DNA of 64,000 bases from Bacteroidales bacterium (GTDB taxonomy: Bacteria > Bacteroidota > Bacteroidia > Bacteroidales > ML635J-15). The translations under genes were made by a program, and so were the position numbers. Shown here piece after piece: positions 53,194 to 60,495 of the stretch. How positions within the stretch are numbered: the first letter of the stretch is position 1; every line of letters begins with the position of its first letter. The stretch spans positions 42,906 to 106,905 of the forward strand of contig JAFGVU010000195.1 of assembly GCA_016937855.1 (NCBI GenBank), written 5' to 3'. The notes beneath the pieces are model-generated. The model saw only the letters and a program-made list of their open reading frames with translations. It was not told where the DNA came from and did not search any database.

Positions 53194-53398
53194 TTAACCA
53201 GCATTATGCATTAGAACCGTAACGAAGTGAAGCTCAGCGCAGCTAAAATCTATTACGACAGTAAATCCCTTTGAAATCAACTGTTTTACTGTGCCTCCCT
53301 CAATAACCGTATTGGTAAGTACGCTTATCTTACGAAACACTTGATTTCTGTGGGATTTACTGCCTCATCACGAAATCCTAACACATAATGCGGGTTAA
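53194..53398. repeat. MITE/REPIN-like palindromic element, copy 1
   Basis: Terminal inverted repeats TTAACCaGCATTATGcaTTAG / reverse complement of right end TTAACCcGCATTATGtgTTAG; inner inverted arms ACAGTAAATCCCtttGAAATCAA / TTGATTTCtgtGGGATTTACTG. Confidence 0.8.
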
Positions 53399-60002: not shown

Positions 60003-60089
60003 GGAGAGATGCCAGAGTGGTCGAATGGGGCGGTCTCGAAAACCGTTGTTCGCTTACGCGGACCCAGGGTTCGAATCCCTGTCTCTCCG
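60003..60089 (+). tRNA. tRNA-Ser (anticodon CGA), with encoded CCA at 60090-60092
   Basis: Acceptor GGAGAGA/TCTCTCC, anticodon loop CTCGAAA, long variable arm, T-loop GGGTTCGAATCCC. Confidence 0.96.
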
Positions 60090-60090
60090 C

Positions 60091-60313
60091 CAAAGTTAAA
60101 ACCCATTGCCTCAGCGATGGGTTTTTTGTTTGTGCAAATTCGCCAAAAACCTCGTTTTTGAAGTGCATTTGCACAAACAAAAAACCAGCGAACAAAGTTC
60201 GCGTAGGTTTTAACTTTGATTGCCCCCACCTTTGGGATCACAAATTTTGTTCACAAAATTTGTAATCCCAACACTAACTGCAATTTTTCAATTTTGTGCA
60301 GCAAAATTGAAAA
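60091..60313. repeat. cluster of nested and tandem inverted repeats 3' of tRNA-Ser
   Basis: CAAAGTTAAAACC/GGTTTTAACTTTG, GGTTTTTTGTTTGTGCAAAT/ATTTGCACAAACAAAAAACC, GCGAAC/GTTCGC, TTGGGATcACAAATTTTG/CAAAATTTGTaATCCCAA, TTTTCAATTTTG/CAAAATTGAAAA. Confidence 0.85.
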
Positions 60314-60319
60314 GAGCTG

Positions 60320-60489
60320 TTAACCCGCATTATGCATTAGCAAATCTATTACGCCAGCAAATTCCTTTGAAATCAAACGTTTTACTGTGTTTCTCTGTAA
60401 CGAAACATTTGATTTTCTTGCGATTTGCTGTCTCATCACCAAGTGGTGCGCTAAGGTAATTGAATTATCTTAAAGCATAATGCGGGTTT
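60320..60489. repeat. MITE/REPIN-like palindromic element, copy 2
   Basis: Ends TTAACCCGCATTATGCATTAG and reverse complement AAACCCGCATTATGCTTTAA; shares ATCTATTACGcCAGcAAATtCCTTTGAAATCAA with copy 1. Confidence 0.8.
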
Positions 60490-60495
60490 GTAACC

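Follow-up and report, generated by a model that had tools for sequence, protein, structure and literature searches.

The window analyzed here is a stretch of 64,000 nucleotides from a member of the Bacteroidales, in which a tRNA-Ser gene is followed, from the last bases of its 3′ end onward, by a dense series of inverted repeats. The features of the locus are the following:

60003–60092, + strand: tRNA-Ser (anticodon CGA), the host gene (ARAGORN; Rfam RF00005, 55.3 bits)
60074–60090, + strand: 3′ tail of the tRNA, AATCCCTGTCTCTCCGC, the putative attachment core (from its sequence and from tail repeats in relatives)
60091–60103, + strand: P1, 5′ strand of the outer stem, beginning inside the CCA end (repeats, fold, own-partner pairing in the family)
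60102–60128, + strand: P2, hairpin and T-run, the putative intrinsic terminator of the tRNA (sequence, fold, equivalents in relatives)
60120–60186, + strand: P3, long hairpin with a 20-bp perfect outer repeat (inverted repeats, fold, equivalents in relatives)
60144–60160, + strand: inner hairpin of P3, with an unpaired AA on its 3′ side (fold)
60188–60202, + strand: P4, hairpin GCGAAC-AAA-GTTCGC (sequence, fold, equivalents in relatives)
60206–60218, + strand: P1′, 3′ strand of the outer stem (inverted repeats, fold)
60223–60269, + strand: family signature, a C-run and then GGGATCAC-hairpin-GTAATCC, the 3′ boundary of the unit (sequence, signature counts)
60234–60241 and 60262–60268, + strand: GGGATCAC and GTAATCC within the signature, with one C.A mismatch
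60285–60313, + strand: extra hairpin, common to the C109 copy of the same genome (alignment reaching 60317)

The original prediction had described a 13-bp perfect outer stem, the hairpin CCCATTGC, a 20-bp perfect repeat with a CAAAAAC-CTC-GTTTTTG hairpin in its loop, the P4 hairpin and two further hairpins, and all of them were found where it had placed them (60091–60103/60206–60218, 60102–60121, 60120–60139/60167–60186, 60188–60202, and 60232–60271 and 60285–60313, respectively). Folding, which it had proposed as a check, also bore it out: the minimum free energy (MFE) of 60085–60330 (246 nt) is −99.4 kcal/mol (z = −12.6), while 200 dinucleotide shuffles of the same segment gave −47.4 ± 4.1 kcal/mol and none of the 200 folded as well. 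In the predicted structure the P1 stem, flush with the 3′ end of the tRNA-Ser(CGA), encloses P2, P3, and P4, so that the unit reads, in order, tRNA 3′ end, P1, P2, bulged P3, P4, P1′, C-run, and GGGATCAC-hairpin-GTAATCC; in the window the signature hairpin, 3′ of the C-run, is GGGATCAC..GTAATCCC. Judged by its sequence, P2, a GC hairpin with GGTTTTTTG, reads as the ordinary intrinsic terminator of the tRNA, and an equivalent hairpin and T-run is present in relatives. The extra hairpin at 60285–60313 is not part of the core unit in other lineages.

A separate dispersed, MITE-like palindromic repeat occupies 60320–60490, just beyond the unit, with 18-bp arms (AACCCGCATTATGCATTA / TAAAGCATAATGCGGGTT) 131 nt apart and about two dozen partial matches in the genome. 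A 28-bp inverted repeat (86%) at 53259–53362 resembles its inner arms and is possibly another member. At the contig end, 62354–63746 holds a putative gene pair encoding a HipA-like and an HTH (HipB-like) protein.

The unit is not alone in its genome. A second copy of 60076–60317, 91% identical, is found at the end of contig C109, where it sits behind a mere 3′ fragment of a TGA-type tRNA-Ser (..CCCTCTTTCTCCGCC) and forms the end of an island carrying type I restriction genes, an HTH protein, and a BT4734/VapE-like protein. Recognizable copies occur in three congeners; others show the same architecture behind tRNA-Ser with unrelated sequence, and some have a plain terminator only, including one (L063) whose tRNA is identical, so presence behind tRNA-Ser among congeners is patchy. 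Of 295 genomes of the order, 43 contain the signature GGGATCAC-N-GTAATCC; the reversed control had two matches. A stricter version retrieved 120 stretches from public genomes, mostly of Bacteroidota (the few other matches look like chance), 54 of which have a tRNA 128–156 nt upstream. The hosts are nearly always tRNA-Ser: in an enlarged set of 87, the units lie behind 82 Ser, two His, two Pro, and one Arg tRNAs, and in Pedobacter nutrimenti, with 48 tRNA genes, a unit is present only at both tRNA-Ser(TGA) genes. Forty genomes each contained few distinct signature sites (control, 0), and an intact tRNA precedes 15 of 20 extra sites. The family turns out to be found across Bacteroidota, with the strict signature occurring in 3 of 348 genomes of an even phylum sample, which means either that the exact pattern undercounts or that the element is rare in the groups sampled. 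As the phylum-wide set was picked by the signature, the invariance of the latter is partly by construction, and many units share ancestry, so their counts are not of independent events; the pairing test, strand bias, tRNA linkage, and tail repeats beyond AATCCC, all presented below or above, were not built into the selecting pattern.

Several of these loci hold additional sequences. In the C109 island (L061, G000:C109:16000-35515) a 1121-aa reverse-transcriptase-like ORF adjoins a nitrilase-like ORF, both read from their translations and neither with a Pfam match; a 329-aa ORF beside the BT4734/VapE-like gene likewise has no Pfam match, and its homolog lies beside the unit of G015 (L059). Genes are found between copies of the 3′ motif at L202 (5574–7666, a BF3164-like lipoprotein and an NVEALA-like peptide), L217 (4287–5532, a HigB/HigA-like pair), L187 (563–1620, a 280-aa protein), and L242 (426–895, a VOC-like protein), all of these names being readings of the translations. 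Tandem arrays, repeating from the P3 apex to GTAATCC, occur in several lineages (L117, L122, L125, L142, L145, L147, and L152). Insertion-sequence-like DNA with ends GGATCAAGTCATAAACTTGTGGA is inserted in Pedobacter units at L373 (12050–12970) and L369 (11940–12930), and detached tRNA-Ser 5′ halves (the first ~38 nt) lie near intact tRNA-Ser genes at L059 (5919–5956) and L089 (133–171).

The original prediction had recognized no described family, and we could not find one either. At the gathering score, Rfam matched only the tRNA in the window and in the family units, and a permissive search added chance-level microRNA-type matches to the hairpins and nothing credible; plasmid and phage collections matched the tRNA itself only. 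The openly accessible full-text literature that was examined contains no description of the family, so these tRNA-Ser-linked folded units have apparently not been described or named before.

Evidence of mobility comes from the far end of the units, where 13 of 105 (~12%) carry an exact 16–17-nt repeat of their tRNA's own tail. Among cultured strains, Olivibacter domesticus (L194) is an example with a perfect or near-perfect repeat. The lengths of the tail matches are bimodal, and unrelated tails reach 12 nt in only two of ~2,960 comparisons. The repeats are spaced 147–175 bp apart at the 13 loci, with no gene between them. The copy in the window has no complete far repeat and shares AATCCC only, so we infer its mobility from the relatives and from the C109 copy. 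A far-end tail repeat is one property sought in a tRNA-targeted element; another, the accretion of several different elements behind the same tRNA, was seen at two loci. In G409 (L330), the order behind the tRNA-Ser(GCT) is unit, tail repeat, and remnant of a different unit; the complete unit is 90% identical to the one at the tRNA-Ser(GGA) of that genome, and the first part of the remnant resembles, at 84% over 45 nt, the unit that another genome has at its tRNA-Ser(GCT). At L197, two different units are stacked.

Comparison of Pedobacter loci showed movement or conversion between tRNA genes in addition to the patchy presence behind tRNA-Ser. At one locus with synteny on either side, the units of two Pedobacter genomes are 82.8% identical; G359_A has 95.1% identity with the unit of a different G353 locus, and G353_A has 94.5% identity with a third. 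Among three Pedobacter units compared at the yihY locus, homology ends sharply at the 3′ motif. We discarded a simple occupied/empty contrast at this locus: G359 and G363 have an island directly behind the tRNA, and they are not true empty sites because the island is bordered at its distal end by a unit or what is left of one (~16 kb downstream from the tRNA next to yihY in G363). Sites elsewhere that lack any unit match may be true empty sites.

Such arrangements raise the question of whether the unit is a terminal module of larger islands, that is, their tRNA-proximal end brought along, with lone units being leftovers after island loss. tRNA-Ser is a hot spot for islands here, units are found at island ends, preceded by 3′ fragments of tRNAs (as in the C109 island and the displaced units of G359 and G363), and in G330 the unit lies a few hundred bases past the end of an integrase gene. 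In those loci, nevertheless, the unit lies beyond the island and follows a tRNA fragment, as a chromosomal flank would, the Pedobacter islands bear a different, plain terminator at their own tRNA-proximal ends, and complete gene-free units run from repeat to repeat at the 13 loci mentioned above, all of which makes us regard this origin as improbable. The swaps between loci could owe something to gene conversion with identical tRNA genes as anchors, but this process makes neither exact tail repeats nor stacked unrelated units.

The units are alike in shape rather than in sequence, and on the sequences compared it is the fold that appears to be selected. The four-way junction is the MFE fold of 43 of 54 units, and the z-scores of the units lie mostly between −4 and −16. 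Because stems of variable length misalign, RNAalifold on a MAFFT alignment recovered only 15 pairs, and we relied instead on a swap test. The first 16 nt of a unit pair with their own distal strand in a mean run of 12.3 bp, whereas the mean run against the partners of other units is 6.0 bp; runs of at least 9 bp were reached with 83% of own partners and 7% of foreign ones. Close relatives exchange both arms of P3 jointly. Arms decaying without compensation would have spoken against the original prediction, and in the family the pairing with the own partner is kept instead.

The mismatches tolerated within the helices differ between strands: across the family there are 52 A.G against 3 C.T, 32 G.T against 9 A.C, and 11 G.G against 1 C.C. 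This asymmetry implies that the strand kept folded is the tRNA-sense single strand and not a symmetric cruciform, in which both strands would be equivalent. The three readings originally offered therefore fare differently: the attachment or recombination element is best supported, by the tail repeats, accretion, and movement; a cruciform-forming DNA element is disfavored by the mismatches; and a structured RNA is a less likely alternative, in favor of which it can be said that the sense strand is the one kept folded.

As a structured non-coding RNA, the unit would be transcribed by read-through past P2 and cleaved at the tRNA 3′ end to yield a four-way-junction RNA starting exactly at P1, with a cellular role, and gene conversion would spread it among tRNA-Ser genes. 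In addition to the sense-specific mismatches, the sense RNA is more stable than the antisense in 43 of 54 units, G(CUYG)C loops, GA/GA, and a bulged A on the 3′ side are frequent in P3, and P1 is flush with the tRNA end. A further point is the retention of the unit at several orthologous tRNA-Ser(TGA) genes in a Pedobacter clade, which also fits a module maintained by the host with gene conversion. On the other hand, a strong-looking terminator, P2, precedes P3, P4, and P1′, and the loops of P4 and of the 3′ motif are often C(GNA)G triloops, which are unusually stable in DNA (those of P2 are more often GNRA or GNNA). Such an RNA would also leave the exact tail repeats, the stacked unrelated units, and the patchy presence unaccounted for, and we consider it unlikely.

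The hairpins might also be no more than back-to-back terminators, P2 in the sense and P4 in the antisense direction, which share their A- and T-tracts and form an insulator homogenized by slippage and gene conversion. The layout X-hp2-X′-hp3-X-hp4-X′ holds throughout the family, and derivatives with deletions between X copies occur. Yet the complementarity of P1 and P3 reaches well past the A/T tracts, symmetric correction would not yield the excess of A.G over C.T, and an insulator of this kind would explain neither the tail repeats nor the conservation of GGGATCAC..GTAATCC as a signature, which leaves very little room for such an origin.

The units resemble several known systems in part. With tRNA-integrated ICEs, prophages, and CIME-like islands they share the tRNA 3′ end as attachment site, the restoration of that end, direct tail repeats, and mutual accretion; those elements, however, are kilobases long and carry genes, whereas the units have a gene-free, folded body of 147–175 bp between repeats. 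MITEs are also short, non-coding, present in few copies, and presumably moved in trans, but the units have no terminal inverted repeats at their ends (P1 is at the 5′ end and its partner ~50 nt inside the 3′ boundary) and no target duplication at random sites, being bound to tRNA 3′ ends with a repeat of the tRNA tail. Integron attC sites likewise vary in sequence, conserve structure, and fold as single strands with a strand bias, and cassette arrays likewise have tandem copies with occasional genes between them; in contrast to attC, no GTTRRRY/RYYYAAC-type core was noticed in the units read, and the units are anchored at tRNAs and usually occupy few sites per genome. An integron-like cassette reading of the Pedobacter ‘half units’ as the main explanation was dropped because the splits are insertion-sequence insertions or deletions between X repeats. 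REP elements, of 20–40 bp and GTAG- or CGTC-tagged, are also imperfect palindromic hairpins with mismatches and strand-specific folding (PMC3733652), but the signature of the units is GGGATCAC..GTAATCC and not GTAG or CGTC. Mobilization by a RAYT is unsupported, as four of the five Pedobacter genomes with units lack the Y1 transposase domain (PF01797) and the remaining one has only a partial match.

Taken together, we think it somewhat probable that 60091 to ~60270 is a copy of a Bacteroidota family of non-coding, non-autonomous integrative mini-elements of ~150–180 bp that reside at tRNA 3′ ends. Integration would proceed by site-specific recombination between the 3′ strand of the tRNA T-arm and acceptor and a matching core of the element; recombination at such a core would keep the 3′ end of the tRNA complete and provide it with P2, the terminator that the element carries. 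The enzyme responsible would be a recombinase acting in trans and might be the integrase of islands that share the same tRNA site, with the conserved single-strand fold as the substrate recognized, and the copy in the window would have kept the folded body and lost the far core repeat. Integrases are not regularly adjacent to the units in the 18 genomes inspected, where no recombinase was identified; as the unit itself contains no genes, it would be non-autonomous at most. Moreover, an integrase that recombines double-stranded DNA would not by itself require a conserved four-way junction, which counts against the mini-element. A more tentative proposal, which we hold to be rather doubtful, is that the element spreads via its folded sense strand, either as RNA from the tRNA-Ser transcript reinserted at tRNA tails, like a bacterial SINE, or as folded single-stranded DNA recombined in the manner of integrons, with occasional gene cargo (a toxin-antitoxin-like pair, a lipoprotein) between repeats.

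If integrative, the family adds a class of very small elements in which the fold, and not the sequence, is under selection, and it helps account for the hypervariable DNA behind tRNA-Ser genes. The C-run with GGGATCAC..GTAATCC provides a signature for locating islands and tRNA attachment sites. Finally, the family poses the question of which enzyme, a recombinase or a reverse transcriptase, moves a folded strand of ~180 nt.
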